Source of the DNA: Alphaproteobacteria bacterium
GTDB lineage: Bacteria > Pseudomonadota > Alphaproteobacteria > Rs-D84
Direction of reading: 5' to 3'
Length of the DNA stretch: 11,920 bases
Assembly: GCA_017936185.1 (NCBI GenBank)
Contig: JAGBGA010000032.1
Location: 1 to 11,920, forward strand
The position numbers were made by a program, and so were the translations under genes. How positions within the stretch are numbered: position 1 is the first letter of the stretch; every line of letters starts with the position of its first letter. Shown here one piece after another: positions 2,640 to 11,920 of this stretch. The notes beneath the pieces are model-generated. The model ran no database searches, was not told where the DNA came from, and saw nothing but the letters and a program-made list of their open reading frames with translations.

Positions 2640-5039
2640 TTATTGTTTTTGTTCGGCGACAACAAAATCCAATGCGTTACCCAATACAATTTCATTCGCG
2701 CGCGCGGCAGATTTTATCAAACCATGCAAGACATCTGGTGTCGTTGACGGAATGGTTAATGTTTCCAGTTTTGCCCCATTACCAATTTTACGTTCTGTGC
2801 GCATACCGCGAACGTTTTTCAATAATTCCAGCGCAATATCCATCGTCGATACATCGGTATCATATTCAGAATTTACGGTTGGATATTGGGTCAAGTGCAA
2901 TGTTTCGCCACCTTCGAAATCTTTATAAATTTTCTGCCACAATTCTTCGGTCAAGAATGGAATAAATGGCGCATAAAGACCGATTATCGCACGCAAGACG
3001 GTGTACAATGTCCACTGGGCCGATAATTTCGATTCCGCGCTGTATTTTTCCGGCGCCCAGAATCGGTCTTTGATGAATTCCAAATACTGGTCACAGAAAA
3101 TATCCCAAAAGAATGTATCGATTGCGGCGCGTGAATTATAGTTGTCGTATTTATCCAAATGCTTTCTGGTTTCGGCAATTGTCTTGTTTAATTCAGATAA
3201 CACCCATCTGTCTTCGATAAAGCGTTCGGATACTGGAATCGATTTCGCGGTCGCCGGTTCAAAGTCAGATAAATTCATCAAAACATATTTTGACGCATTC
3301 CATAACTTGGTCAATAATTTTGAACCACGTTTGACTTCGTCATCAGAATATCTGATGTCTGTGCCAATTGGTGCAGTGGCAATCCAATAACGCAATGCGT
3401 CAACGCCAAACTTTTCAACCGCGTCCAATGGGTCGGTGCCATTGCCTTTGGTCTTGGACATTTTTTGTCCACGTGAATCACGTATCAGACCATGAAAGTT
3501 TACCGTATGGAATGGAACATCGCCCATTACATAAATGCCCATCATTATCATACGCGCAACCCAAAAGAAAATAATATCGGCCGCAGTGTATAATAAATCC
3601 GTTGGATAATATTTCTTTAATTCAAGCGTTTGTTCCGGCCAACCCAATGTCGAAAATGGCCACAGACCAGACGAAAACCATGTGTCCAGAACGTCCGGGT
3701 CACGCGTTAACGCCTTGCCACCCGATTGCTTGATTGCGTCTTCTTCGGTTTCGGCAACGTATACATTACCATCCGCATCATACCAGGCCGGTATATGATG
3801 ACCCCACCACAATTGACGTGAAATCGTCCATGGGCGAATATTCTTCATCCACGCCATAAACAGGTTATATCTGTGTTCAGGCATAAATTTGATTTTTCCG
3901 TCTTCTACCGCCTTTATCGCAGGAATGGCCAACTTTTCTGCATCAACAAACCATTGGTCGGTTAAATATGGTTCAACTGGAACCTGGCCACGTTCAGAAT
4001 ATGGTGTTGGGATTGTTCTGTCTTCAACCTTGACCAAAAGGCCGGCCGCATCAACATCAGCCACAACCGCTTCGCGCGCCTTGTACCGGTCCAGACCGCG
4101 ATATTTTTCCGGAACAACCGGATTATCATTCATTTTTGCGTCCGGTGTTAATATGCATACCGGTGTCAAGTTGTGACGCAGGCCAACTTCCCAGTCGTCA
4201 AAATCGTGGGCCGGTGTAATTTTTACCGCACCGGTACCTTTTTCTGGGTCGGCATGTTCGTCACCAATAATTGGTATTTCAATATCTGTTAATGGAATTA
4301 TCGCACGTTTACCAATTAAGTGTTTTAACTTTTCATTTTCTGGGTGAACGGCAATCGCCTGGTCGCCAAATAATGTTTCGGGACGTGTTGTCGCGATTTC
4401 AATAACACCACCATCAACCAACGGATAGTTAAAGTAATAGAACTTGCCCTTTTCATCACGCGTTTCAACTTCCAGGTCGGAAACAGATGTCATTTGTTTT
4501 GGGCACCAGTTTACCAAACGCTTTTCACGATATATCAAACCTTCGTTATACATTTTTACAAACAATTTTGTAACCGCACGTGACAGACCGTCATCCATGG
4601 TAAAGCGTTCACGCGACCAAACCGGTGTTACACCCAAGATATGTAATTGATTCATAATCTGGCCGCCCTTGTCCGCTTTCCACTTCCAAGCACAATCCAA
4701 TTTTTCTTGTAAAGACAATGTGTGTGGATTAATGCCACGCTTGGACAAATCGCGTTCAACCAATAACTGGGTCGCAATTGATGCATGGTCGGTTCCCGGT
4801 TGCCATAAAACATCAAACCCAGACATACGTTTATAACGACACACAATATCGGTCAAGACATTGTTCATCGCATGACCCATGTGTAAAGAACCAGTGACAT
4901 TCGGTGGTGGCATCATGATGCAAAACGATGGTTTATCAGATGCAACATCGTTATTCCAAAATGTGTTTTTATCCCAGAATTCTTGGATTCTGGTTTCAAT
5001 TTCACGTGGGCTGATATTCTTGCCAAGTTCGATATTCAT
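2640..5039 (-). CDS. valS: Valine--tRNA ligase (ValRS), short C-terminus
   Basis: A class I aminoacyl-tRNA synthetase that charges tRNA-Val with valine. The HIGH motif appears as HMGH (53-56) after PPPNVTG, and the KMSKS loop as KMSKT (526-530). The CP1 editing domain, which removes mischarged threonine, spans roughly 197-345, with TTRPETLFGD (217-226) and the PAHDFDD segment (276-282). The anticodon-binding helical domain is about 600-750. PGTDHASIATQ (81-91) marks the ordinary bacterial type 1 enzyme, not the archaeal-like type 2 of Rickettsia. At 799 residues it is far shorter than E. coli ValRS (951): it ends just after the anticodon-binding region and lacks the C-terminal coiled coil that contacts the tRNA elbow. 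The start is supported by AGGA 8-11 nt upstream and a promoter 38 nt upstream. It is first in an operon with the thioesterase. Confidence 0.97.
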   Translation of the reverse strand: MNIELGKNISPREIETRIQEFWDKNTFWNNDVASDKPSFCIMMPPPNVTGSLHMGHAMNNVLTDIVCRYKRMSGFDVLWQPGTDHASIATQLLVERDLSKRGINPHTLSLQEKLDCAWKWKADKGGQIMNQLHILGVTPVWSRERFTMDDGLSRAVTKLFVKMYNEGLIYREKRLVNWCPKQMTSVSDLEVETRDEKGKFYYFNYPLVDGGVIEIATTRPETLFGDQAIAVHPENEKLKHLIGKRAIIPLTDIEIPIIGDEHADPEKGTGAVKITPAHDFDDWEVGLRHNLTPVCILTPDAKMNDNPVVPEKYRGLDRYKAREAVVADVDAAGLLVKVEDRTIPTPYSERGQVPVEPYLTDQWFVDAEKLAIPAIKAVEDGKIKFMPEHRYNLFMAWMKNIRPWTISRQLWWGHHIPAWYDADGNVYVAETEEDAIKQSGGKALTRDPDVLDTWFSSGLWPFSTLGWPEQTLELKKYYPTDLLYTAADIIFFWVARMIMMGIYVMGDVPFHTVNFHGLIRDSRGQKMSKTKGNGTDPLDAVEKFGVDALRYWIATAPIGTDIRYSDDEVKRGSKLLTKLWNASKYVLMNLSDFEPATAKSIPVSERFIEDRWVLSELNKTIAETRKHLDKYDNYNSRAAIDTFFWDIFCDQYLEFIKDRFWAPEKYSAESKLSAQWTLYTVLRAIIGLYAPFIPFLTEELWQKIYKDFEGGETLHLTQYPTVNSEYDTDVSTMDIALELLKNVRGMRTERKIGNGAKLETLTIPSTTPDVLHGLIKSAARANEIVLGNALDFVVAEQKQ

Positions 5040-5076
5040 GTCTTTATCCTGGGTTATAAAAAATAATCTGTGTAAA

Positions 5077-5104
5077 ATCGTACCAGATTAAATTCAAAAT
5101 TCAA
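5077..5104 (-). promoter_or_regulatory. Promoter of valS - thioesterase operon
   Basis: The minus strand reads TTGAAT (5099-5104), 16 nt, TACGAT (5077-5082). A start near 5070 would give a leader of about 30 nt that includes the AGGA ribosome site. The gpsA terminator at 5162-5191 lies just upstream, so valS needs its own promoter. No leader ORF with Val codons or terminator hairpin is seen between this promoter and valS. Confidence 0.5.
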
Positions 5105-5161
5105 GAAATTCGAATATTCTTTATTTTTTAATAAAAAACAATGGTGGTGTGATCTAAAAAT

Positions 5162-5191
5162 AAAAAAAACGCCCGATTGGGCGTTTTTTTT
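5162..5191. terminator. Bidirectional intrinsic terminator after gpsA
   Basis: A 6-bp stem, ACGCCC (5169-5174) with GGGCGT (5179-5184) and loop GATT, is flanked by an A-run (5162-5168) and a T-run (5185-5191), so it works as a Rho-independent terminator on either strand. In context it ends the minus-strand TPR-gpsA transcript. The gpsA stop codon (5190-5192) lies inside its flank, so the hairpin starts immediately after the coding region. Confidence 0.88.
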
Positions 5192-6053
5192 ATATATCAA
5201 GCTTTTTATGCATCATGTCAAGAACCGGTGTCGCAACACCCAAGTCACGCGCACGCGTCATAAGACCACACAAGGCAAAAATGCCTTCGACGGTGCCAGA
5301 TGGTTCTTGGCCACGCGCAATGGACATGCCACCGGAAAAATTACGACTGGTTTCACTGGTTGCGGACAAGAATAAATCACCAATCCCGCAAAGACCAAGA
5401 AATGTACGCATGTCACCACCCGCCGCAAGACCAATATCAACAACTTCGTTCCATGCGCGCGTAAACATCATTGCACGATCGTTTTCACCCATGCATGCAA
5501 CACGACAAAAACCACTGATTAACGCAACGGCATTCTTGCCAACACCGCAAACTTCGGTGCCGATAACGTCGCTGCTTTCAACCAAGAACAAGTCACTTAA
5601 TGCTTCGCGGCCAAAATCAAGCGCCTTGTCCGTACCCGCCAACGTCGACCCAGTTGGAACACCACGTGCCACTTCGGCGGCAAATTGTGGTCCAGACAAC
5701 ACACCGTATTCAACGCATTCTGGTACTTCTGCACTTAGAATTTCAGACATAAATTGACCCGATGGGCATTCGGCGCCCTTGGTACAGATTATTATCGGTT
5801 GACCATCATAGAATTCATGCGCACGACGTAACGTTTCACGAAAATATGCCGCCGGCGTCACAATCAACCATGTATCACAATCTTTTAATTCAGACATCGC
5901 CGACGTTATGCGTATACTTGATGGCATTTGCACGTCGTCAAAATGTTTGTATTCGCCATCATATGACCATAAAACAACACTTGAACCACCGCGCGATACC
6001 GCAATCGATAACGCCGTTCCCCACGCACCTGCACCAATTACACCAACTTTCAT
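5190..6053 (-). CDS. gpsA: Glycerol-3-phosphate dehydrogenase [NAD(P)+]
   Basis: Cytosolic enzyme that reduces dihydroxyacetone phosphate to sn-glycerol 3-phosphate, the backbone for phospholipid synthesis. The N-terminal Rossmann fold shows GAGAWG (7-12). The family's conserved lysines are K92 (in CTKG) and K173 (in GKNAVAL); SGPQFAAEV (120-128) and GIGDL (223-227) with TSRN (235-238) complete the signature. At 287 residues it is some 50 shorter than the E. coli enzyme (339); the shortening appears spread through the N-terminal domain and the C-terminus, and all catalytic motifs are kept. The start codon overlaps the stop of the TPR gene by 4 bp (ATGA, 6050-6053), so translation is probably coupled, and no separate promoter is evident. 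An intrinsic terminator follows the stop codon directly. Confidence 0.95.
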   Translation of the reverse strand: MKVGVIGAGAWGTALSIAVSRGGSSVVLWSYDGEYKHFDDVQMPSSIRITSAMSELKDCDTWLIVTPAAYFRETLRRAHEFYDGQPIIICTKGAECPSGQFMSEILSAEVPECVEYGVLSGPQFAAEVARGVPTGSTLAGTDKALDFGREALSDLFLVESSDVIGTEVCGVGKNAVALISGFCRVACMGENDRAMMFTRAWNEVVDIGLAAGGDMRTFLGLCGIGDLFLSATSETSRNFSGGMSIARGQEPSGTVEGIFALCGLMTRARDLGVATPVLDMMHKKLDI

Positions 6054-11411: not shown

Positions 11412-11436
11412 TAATACATCCTTGATATCACAACAA

Positions 11437-11464
11437 AGAATAACACAGGTTTTATTTCTGTCAA
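11437..11464 (-). promoter_or_regulatory. Promoter of the small membrane-protein gene
   Basis: The minus strand has a perfect TTGACA (11459-11464), 16 nt, then TATTCT (11437-11442) preceded by TGT (extended -10). The predicted start near 11430 leaves a leader of about 20 nt that carries the AAGGA ribosome site. The -35 and the TGTGTTAT stretch around the -10 closely match the promoter of the HExxH gene. Confidence 0.6.
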
Positions 11465-11485
11465 TTATTTTATTTATATAAAAAC

Positions 11486-11514
11486 TTGCATTTTCGGTAT
11501 TTTATGTGTAAAGT
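11486..11514 (+). promoter_or_regulatory. Promoter of the ileS leader transcript
   Basis: TTGCAT (11486-11491), 17 nt, TAAAGT (11509-11514), with TGTG just upstream of the -10. The ATG of the leader peptide begins 8 nt after the hexamer, at the predicted transcription start, the same geometry as rsmG and the HExxH gene. The hexamers themselves match consensus only moderately. Confidence 0.5.
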
Positions 11515-11521
11515 TGTTTTC

Positions 11522-11554
11522 ATGAAACAAAAAACAATAATTATTATTAGATAA
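11522..11554 (+). CDS. ileS leader peptide with four Ile codons
   Basis: The ten-codon ORF reads MKQKTIIIIR and stops at TAA. Codons 6-9 are ATA-ATT-ATT-ATT (11537-11548), four isoleucines in a row directly before an intrinsic terminator and the gene for isoleucyl-tRNA synthetase. This is the hallmark of a leader peptide for ribosome-mediated attenuation, as in the trp, his, ilv and pheST leaders of enterobacteria. No Shine-Dalgarno precedes the ATG, but the ATG lies at the predicted transcription start, so leaderless initiation is likely. When charged tRNA-Ile is scarce, the ribosome should stall at these codons. The RNA folds that follow (11555-11603) fit this model in detail. Expression is untested, and the ORF is too short for codon statistics. 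Confidence 0.75.
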   Translation: MKQKTIIIIR

Positions 11555-11603
11555 CGGTCGACTGCGCTTCTGCGGTGGCTGGGGCGCGTATGCGCCCGTT
11601 TTT
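11555..11603 (+). promoter_or_regulatory. Transcription attenuator of ileS
   Basis: Three alternative hairpins can be drawn. Protector (1:2): 11555-11566 with 11571-11581, bulge at G11560, loop CTTC, eleven pairs including G-U. Antiterminator (2:3): GCGCTTC (11564-11570) with GGGGCGC (11581-11587), seven pairs with two G-U. Terminator (3:4): GGGCGC (11582-11587) with GCGCCC (11592-11597), loop GTAT, then G and five T (11599-11603). The antiterminator uses the same bases as the other two, so they exclude each other. A ribosome stalled on the Ile codons would leave 11564-11570 free and allow read-through; one at the stop codon (11552-11554) would cover that segment and favour termination. Confidence 0.75.
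11582..11603 (+). terminator. Intrinsic terminator within the ileS leader
   Basis: A perfect 6-bp all-GC stem (GGGCGC, loop GTAT, GCGCCC) followed by GTTTTT. It is placed between the leader peptide and ileS, on the same strand, 22 nt before the ileS ATG, where a constitutive terminator would make no sense. Confidence 0.85.
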
Positions 11604-11624
11604 AATGTAAAAATGGAGTAAAAT

Positions 11625-11920
11625 ATGTCATATCCAAAAACCGATGCCAAAGTGAATTTTACAACACTTGAACAGGATGTTTTAAAATACTGGCGCGAAA
11701 ATAATACATTCCATAAATCTTTGGAACGCACAAAACAAGGCGCACCATTTTCATTCTATGATGGGCCACCCTTTGCAAATGGGTTGCCACACTGGGGGCA
11801 TTTGGGTGTGTCGGTTGTAAAAGATATGGTTGCACGTTTCCAAACAATGTCGGGACGACATGTCGTGCGCGAATTGGGGTGGGATTGCCATGGGTTGCCC
11901 GCGGAAAATTCTGTGGAAAA
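11625..11920 (+). CDS. ileS: Isoleucine--tRNA ligase, type 2 (5' part)
   Basis: Only the first 98 codons are in the window; the gene runs off the end. It charges tRNA-Ile with isoleucine. The N-terminal catalytic fold shows FSFYDGPPFANGLPHWGHL (42-60), where HWGH (56-59) is the HIGH motif, then ELGWDCHGLP near 83-92. FYDGPPFANGLPH marks the type 2 enzyme of archaea, eukaryotes and some bacteria including Rickettsia; the common bacterial type 1 has HDGPPYANG-IHIGH. Some type 2 enzymes are insensitive to mupirocin (for example MupA). The start follows GGAG (11615-11618) by six bases. Expression is likely controlled by the leader-peptide attenuator just upstream. The editing domain, KMSKS loop and anticodon domain lie beyond the window. 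Confidence 0.95.
   Translation, partial: MSYPKTDAKVNFTTLEQDVLKYWRENNTFHKSLERTKQGAPFSFYDGPPFANGLPHWGHLGVSVVKDMVARFQTMSGRHVVRELGWDCHGLPAENSVE

Follow-up and report, generated by a model that had tools for sequence, protein, structure and literature searches.

Leader-peptide attenuation upstream of aminoacyl-tRNA synthetase genes is an established regulatory arrangement, with pheST, trpS and leuS given as examples in the available text of PMC1262725, and T-boxes upstream of ileS are described for Actinobacteria in the same source. Among the Alphaproteobacteria, the cited passages on trpL of Sinorhizobium meliloti describe a leader ORF carried by a leaderless attenuator RNA, in which Trp codons precede a biosynthetic gene (PMC7298713, PMC10117765). 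A small leader ORF has also been named upstream of ileS itself, namely the leader CDS CCNA_03934 of Caulobacter crescentus, which appears as a control construct in the accessible part of PMC4117421 and is named there without sequence, Ile content or mechanism. Its existence makes the statement of an initial annotation of the locus described here, that no case had been described for ileS, too strong. Within the open-licence PMC texts retrieved, no leader-peptide attenuator of ileS was recognised, and the Caulobacter leader CDS was the nearest entry; Rfam returned no match for the locus. Here we describe a compact element upstream of ileS in a gut alphaproteobacterium that, judged by comparative sequence analysis, is very probably a ribosome-mediated transcription attenuator that would set ileS expression according to the charging of tRNA-Ile.

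The window, that is, the whole stretch of DNA analyzed (11,920 nt), belongs to an incomplete genome of 0.79 Mb in 122 contigs. The start of its ileS gene matches gut Alphaproteobacteria at no more than 87% identity at best, with some of the matching records named Candidatus Enterousia, and the host is a Candidatus Enterousia-like gut alphaproteobacterium from a group in which genomes are very small. GTDB places Enterousia in the order Rs-D84, and amino-acid biosynthesis pathways are reportedly absent from the genomes of this order; the main text of that report also describes these genomes as without standard amino-acid transporters, while its abstract is looser on import (PMC12306168, in the sections available). 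The search for ileS covered 156 genomes of the same genus, and when plasmid records were queried with the ileS start, every match (225 records) remained below 60% identity. The region upstream of valS, which lies in the same window (5020-5200, minus strand), showed no Val-rich leader ORF when inspected by eye. All of the parts named in the initial annotation could be read in the sequence at the positions it had assigned to them (Table 1), and the whole attenuator, from the leader AUG to the end of the T-run, measures 82 nt.

Table 1. Features of the predicted ileS attenuator and its surroundings in the window.
Feature	Position	Strand	Detail or basis
Weak promoter-like pair, TTGCAT (-35, 11486-11491) and TAAAGT (-10, 11509-11514), spacer 17	11486..11514	+	sequence
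Leader ORF MKQKTIIIIR, then stop	11522..11554	+	ATG AAA CAA AAA ACA ATA ATT ATT ATT AGA TAA
Four tandem Ile codons, ATA ATT ATT ATT (putative control codons)	11537..11548	+	codon conservation
Protector or pause hairpin	11555..11581	+	-11.0 kcal/mol
Antiterminator 5' strand (segment 2), GCGCTTC	11564..11570	+	helix 97.1% paired
Antiterminator 3' strand (segment 3), common to the terminator	11581..11587	+	RNAalifold consensus helix
Intrinsic terminator, GGGCGC GTAT GCGCCC, G, TTTTT	11582..11603	+	stem 11582-11597, -11.7 kcal/mol; T-run 11599-11603
Shine-Dalgarno-like GGAG of ileS	11615..11618	+	sequence
ileS, 5' part (gene leaves the window)	11625..11918	+	ATG 11625; Pfam tRNA-synt_1

The conservation of the leader ORF was examined in a locus set consisting of the best 80 of 158 named loci, 60 same-genus loci from the lower-scoring part of the list, and the window. 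A short ORF with three or more Ile codons in tandem (3-5) was present in the 230 nt before ileS in 135 of the 140 relatives (77/80 named loci and 58/60 others), compared with only 77 of 2820 shuffled controls made from all 141 upstream regions; for the window's own 230 nt, a short ORF with four tandem Ile codons arose in 7 of 2000 dinucleotide shuffles. Such an ORF was lacking in five relatives (L052, L091, L097, L128, and L146), in two of which (L052 and L091) the element is present one gene further upstream of ileS, its 5' end being removed by the contig end in L052. With six duplicates dropped, 130 distinct leaders made up the alignment A1, which by construction contains Ile-codon leaders only. 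Across 128 of these aligned leaders, 508 of the 512 codons at the four Ile positions specify Ile, the four exceptions all falling at the first of these positions, and the third base is free, with A, T and C all in use. Start codons (ATG 134, GTG 2) and stop codons (TAA 124, TGA 6, TAG 6) likewise vary among the 136 leaders in which they were counted. As judged from these codon patterns, which combine retained Ile positions with synonymous third-base changes and swaps between equivalent start or stop codons, the leader ORF is under coding constraint.

Between the leader ORF and ileS, folding and alignment point to a mutually exclusive antiterminator and intrinsic terminator. In the window, the best fold of the antiterminator region (11564-11587) reaches -13.1 kcal/mol, and the antiterminator is preferred until the terminator is nearly complete, after which the combination of protector and terminator wins. 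The antiterminator 5' strand lies mostly inside the protector loop. Positions 11564-11565 also belong to the protector stem and position 11581 belongs to both structures; the two do not form a simple 1:2 and 2:3 pair. When A1 was folded unguided by RNAalifold (130 sequences), the antiterminator helix came out as the consensus; two of its five pairs show both-sided changes, and the covariation term is small (-0.12). Taken as seven pairs, the helix has 97.1% of its cells paired versus 30-74% in slid registers. Both-sided changes were found in four cells, which are few and come from two lineages, and were matched in 0 of 500 shuffles, with the pair-type count equalled in 51 of 500. The register slid by +2 has a covariation score of 0.086 versus 0.072 for the antiterminator, yet it contains no both-sided change.

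The cores of segments 2, 3 and 4 read GCGC/GCGC/GCGC in 116 of the 128 leaders. They are altered in concert to GCAC/GTGC/GCAC in three leaders (L041, L044, and L047) that represent one clade (ileS identity 0.90-0.94 over 98 residues), and to ACGC/GCGT/ACGC in L150. Segments 3 and 4 alone are altered in L042, L073 and L117, where a G-U pair with segment 2 remains, and the other five of the 128 carry a change or gap confined to segment 4. Of the 130 distinct loci, all but L111 have an uninterrupted terminator stem of 5 or more pairs, and a T-run of at least 5 follows in all 130; loss of the Ile codons with retention of the terminator was seen in 0 of the 130 distinct leaders, a set chosen for its Ile codons. 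The protector region folds better than its shuffles (mean z -1.78; 89/128 below -1), the protector stem in a fixed register showed no covariation among the aligned leaders, and the antiterminator is the more stable of the two structures in 126 of 128. The expectation that relatives would preserve the Ile-rich ORF with compensatory changes in three stems was largely borne out: the ORF, antiterminator and terminator are conserved together with concerted changes, and for the protector stem no compensatory change could be shown.

The spacing between these parts is narrowly kept. In all 128 leaders, segment 2 follows the stop codon after a gap of 8-10 nt, and in 127 of them it lies 17-19 nt from the base at which the last Ile codon begins; two further leaders missed by the segment-2 motif, L048 (gap 11) and L060 (gap 14), were read by hand. 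This fixed distance of the stop and Ile codons from segment 2 fits a ribosome acting as a ruler. In the window, 9 nt separate the stop codon from segment 2, whose first base is the tenth after the stop; this corrects the distance of 10 nt given in the initial annotation. For a ribosome that has the stop codon in its A site, the distance from the first P-site base to the start of segment 2 is 15-17 nt. A 15-nt footprint measured from that base leaves segment 2 free, both in the window and on average; for the window, the antiterminator stays intact when the leading edge is placed at 15 and is abolished when it is placed at about 18. In this model, whether a ribosome at the stop codon masks segment 2 would be borderline, with 2-3 nt of footprint making the difference. 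When the ribosome is stalled on the last Ile codon, it is set back by 6 nt and segment 2 remains free. Such a stall has little effect on the stability of the protector (mean -9.9 to -9.1 kcal/mol), so the classical rule in which the stalled ribosome covers segment 1 is not applicable as such. Even without a ribosome, the antiterminator is already favored before the terminator is complete (mean 0.92). Most likely, the mechanism would rest on the masking of segment 2 at the stop codon and not on the covering of segment 1 during a stall.

The start of transcription is predicted at about 11520-11522. A consensus scan of the window listed the terminator, the promoter at 11486-11514 being absent from its output. 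Promoter and tRNA positions were counted in 129 distinct loci (95 + 34; L069 was too short and left out). Of the 95 loci with no tRNA 3' end next to the leader, 72 have their best promoter-like site ending 6-9 nt ahead of the leader start codon, a spacing that shuffles reach in 17.7%. A Shine-Dalgarno-like motif within 18 nt of the start was found for 13 of 130 leaders versus 126 of 130 ileS genes. Together, the promoter spacing and the scarcity of this motif indicate that translation of the leader probably begins on a 5' end that is bare or very short, as reported for S. meliloti trpL, and the leader ORF, with its predicted start, is probably leaderless or nearly so. The other 34 loci have a tRNA 3' end, identified by pattern, 9-75 nt upstream of the leader, and ARAGORN, applied to 60 named loci, types the upstream genes as tRNA-Thr (e.g., L040, L050, L057, and L058). 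Where a tRNA-Thr-type gene ends so shortly before the leader, the leader and ileS may share a transcript with the tRNA.

Taken together, the comparison shows a translated Ile-rich ORF, a fixed spacing, an antiterminator and a terminator, while leaderless initiation, masking at the stop codon, stalling and the direction of the response are steps that we infer. Transcription would begin at or beside the leader AUG, and a ribosome would load on the bare 5' end. With ample Ile-tRNA, this ribosome would reach the stop codon and bring its leading edge onto the antiterminator 5' strand, allowing the terminator to form. When Ile-tRNA is short, it would stall on the Ile codons, 6-15 nt further back, and the antiterminator, being stabler than the protector, would take segment 3 and permit read-through into ileS. 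The same parts could also be read with the opposite logic, in which a ribosome at the stop codon would cover only the protector 5' strand and free the antiterminator; finished leader translation would then lead to read-through, stalling or no translation would lead to termination, and ileS would track translation capacity. The placement of segment 2 right at the expected leading edge of a stop-codon ribosome, with its gap of 8-10 nt, agrees with this logic, as do the location of the protector 5' strand between the stop and the antiterminator and a value of about 1.0 for the antiterminator in the model with a 15-nt footprint. We nevertheless consider it unlikely, since an antiterminator favored without any ribosome makes the protector a weak gate, IleRS would be reduced just when Ile-tRNA is scarce, and there would be no reason to keep Ile codons over any slow codons.

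An additional action in trans of the attenuated RNA or leader peptide, comparable to rnTrpL/peTrpL of S. meliloti, is suggested by the resemblance in layout, a leaderless leader ORF carried by an attenuator RNA (cited passages of PMC7298713 and PMC10117765), but the codons ahead of the Ile run differ widely between leaders, and we regard this as very unlikely. Alternatively, the hairpin before ileS could terminate an upstream transcription unit, in many cases a tRNA-Thr gene, and stand behind an AT-rich ORF by coincidence. This would be in keeping with the 34 of 129 loci in which a tRNA 3' end precedes the leader, and with one same-genus locus (L128, from genome G069) in which the element is absent and an unrelated terminator-like hairpin lies between a tRNA-Thr-type gene and ileS, with no Ile leader. 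However, 95 of the 129 loci, the window included, have no such tRNA, and neither the conserved codons nor the concerted changes across segments 2-4 would be explained, making a chance arrangement of this kind extremely unlikely. T-box control of ileS is common in Firmicutes, and TGGNACC belongs to the T-box motif. If the element were a T-box that senses tRNA, possibly in shortened form, it would find precedent in the ileS T-boxes of Actinobacteria and some agreement in the 8 of 130 leaders that contain TGGNACC; the motif is missing from the other 122, the window's among them, and the translated Ile-rich ORF would be left unexplained. The Rfam T-box model gave no match in the window at the gathering score, in 11420-11700 up to E 5, or in 18 related loci up to E 1. 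T-box control was rejected on the basis of this result and the rarity of TGGNACC, as the initial annotation had already concluded, and we give it almost no credence.

The distribution of the proposed ribosome-mediated attenuator was followed using a covariance model built from A1 (R1). Within the family, R1 matches 165 of 183 genomes and reaches 11 of 13 genera; inside the genus these matches arise partly by construction, and outside it R1 matches 20 of 27 family genomes, one of which (G179) is in the training set as L089. The DNA adjacent to ileS was inspected at 141 + 26 family loci. The 18 family genomes missed by R1 comprise ten without an ileS match at E 1e-30, one (G004) in which the ileS match starts only at residue 39 and is presumably cut off, one (G167) with a diverged leader and a weak score (E 0.079), and six with an ileS gene before which no leader was found (G068, G069, G165, G171, G172, and G173). 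Second matches occurred in three genomes: in G121 (E 0.008), where neither a leader ORF nor ileS was seen, in G002, where the element lies at a contig end and adjoins a tRNA-Thr-type gene, and in G175, where it belongs to a second ileS.

Among the other families of the order, the element was found in 0 of 16 loci. Two loci of family f2 (L209 and L217) have short ORFs before ileS, MFQINQEIIFRIPVWGN and MFNQKIIYRIPCGGQ, each closed by a stop codon and containing a CCCC/GGGG-type hairpin; no terminator was seen by eye upstream of ileS in either. Across 385 class genomes and under stricter filters, R1 recovered only the window's own genome, three same-genus genomes and one weak match (G351, E 0.034). 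For a class survey, upstream DNA was taken from 90 of the 147 class genomes in which ileS was present, and 88 of these regions were usable (L253, read inside the gene, and L260, of 92 nt, were excluded); Ile-rich short ORFs before ileS were seen 3 times, where shuffles of the 90 gave an expectation of 2.9. An ileS leader of this kind shared more widely among the Alphaproteobacteria was rejected, R1 being near-absent class-wide and Ile-rich ORFs occurring at chance level. The most suggestive Ile-rich ORF before ileS in a distant alphaproteobacterium was that of L255 (MSDIRSISIIISIIIP, then a stop codon), with no clear terminator by eye.

The leader stands before two very different IleRS types, even inside single genera. 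In the ileS tree, the two IleRS types of the family form separate clades (100/100 each), and the rarer type is 43-48% identical to the genus type over the first 200 residues. Genus g6 contains the rare type in G162 and the common type in G164 and G166, and genus g13 contains the rare type in G182 and the common type in G178-G181, with the leader in all of these genomes; in genus g10, the rare type of G170 has the leader and the common type of G171-G173 is without it. At the level of single loci, the contrast of L208, L211, L214 and L215 with L179, L180, L181 and L185 likewise displays IleRS types swapping within genera behind the same leader. A GidA/MnmG-family protein (Pfam GIDA) is encoded divergently upstream of ileS in G162, G165 and G167, as well as in G571, a genome from another family that is without the leader, and the start of a similar GidA/MnmG-like protein was recognized by eye in G182 and G181. 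This shared neighbor suggests that the IleRS types were exchanged in place. A single clade of all 32 family ileS rows was not rejected (p-AU 0.066), and transfer from outside is therefore not claimed, only that genomes of a single genus carry one type or the other.

Further arrangements concern the number and position of the genes behind the leader. G175 (L177, L218/L345) carries two ileS genes on different branches of the tree, each with its own Ile leader and terminator. A GNAT acetyltransferase gene lies between leader and ileS in G180, G156 and G178 (L052/L178, L193, and L195), and G176 (L091/L190) has at this place a 190-aa P-loop-like protein, named by eye and with a Pfam match below the cut-off; with a gene between attenuator and ileS, the attenuator would control two-gene units. 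Considering that the same cassette stands before two IleRS types, doubled ileS genes and two-gene units, we lean slightly toward the view that a portable Ile-charging sensor has outlived its gene. The IleRS of a relative of the window's (L032) scores 584-686 bits against a group of solved chains that includes eukaryotic cytoplasmic IleRS and 222-300 bits against another, bacterial group of solved IleRS chains, and we take it to be IleRS2 or of the eukaryote-like type; its start was matched in only 17 of 152 class genomes (E 1e-30).

If the proposed mechanism is correct, an order reported to be without amino-acid biosynthesis (PMC12306168, in the sections available) keeps an exact single-amino-acid sensor, and this sensor is aimed at a synthetase, among the few remaining Ile-tRNA steps in these bacteria. 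Leader-peptide attenuation would be extended to ileS with dense comparative evidence, and the element would provide a very short natural attenuator for studying how ribosome position is read out, together with a natural experiment that exchanges the enzyme and retains the regulator. The kind of mechanism is already known; the host and the persistence are unusual. With the attenuators of pheST, trpS and leuS, the element has in common a leader-peptide attenuation before a synthetase gene, and it differs from them in the gene and the lineage, in a leader that is short and apparently leaderless, and in an antiterminator 5' strand placed in the protector loop. It resembles S. meliloti trpL, as the cited passages describe it, in being an alphaproteobacterial leader ORF on an attenuator RNA, but has Ile codons in place of Trp codons, a synthetase gene in place of a biosynthetic one, and a leaderless start that is only predicted. 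With CCNA_03934 of Caulobacter crescentus, it shares a small leader ORF before an alphaproteobacterial ileS. The T-boxes of Actinobacteria, as covered in the text available, are likewise RNAs upstream of ileS that sense tRNA charging, but they bind the tRNA directly, whereas the ileS leader described here would be read out by the ribosome.
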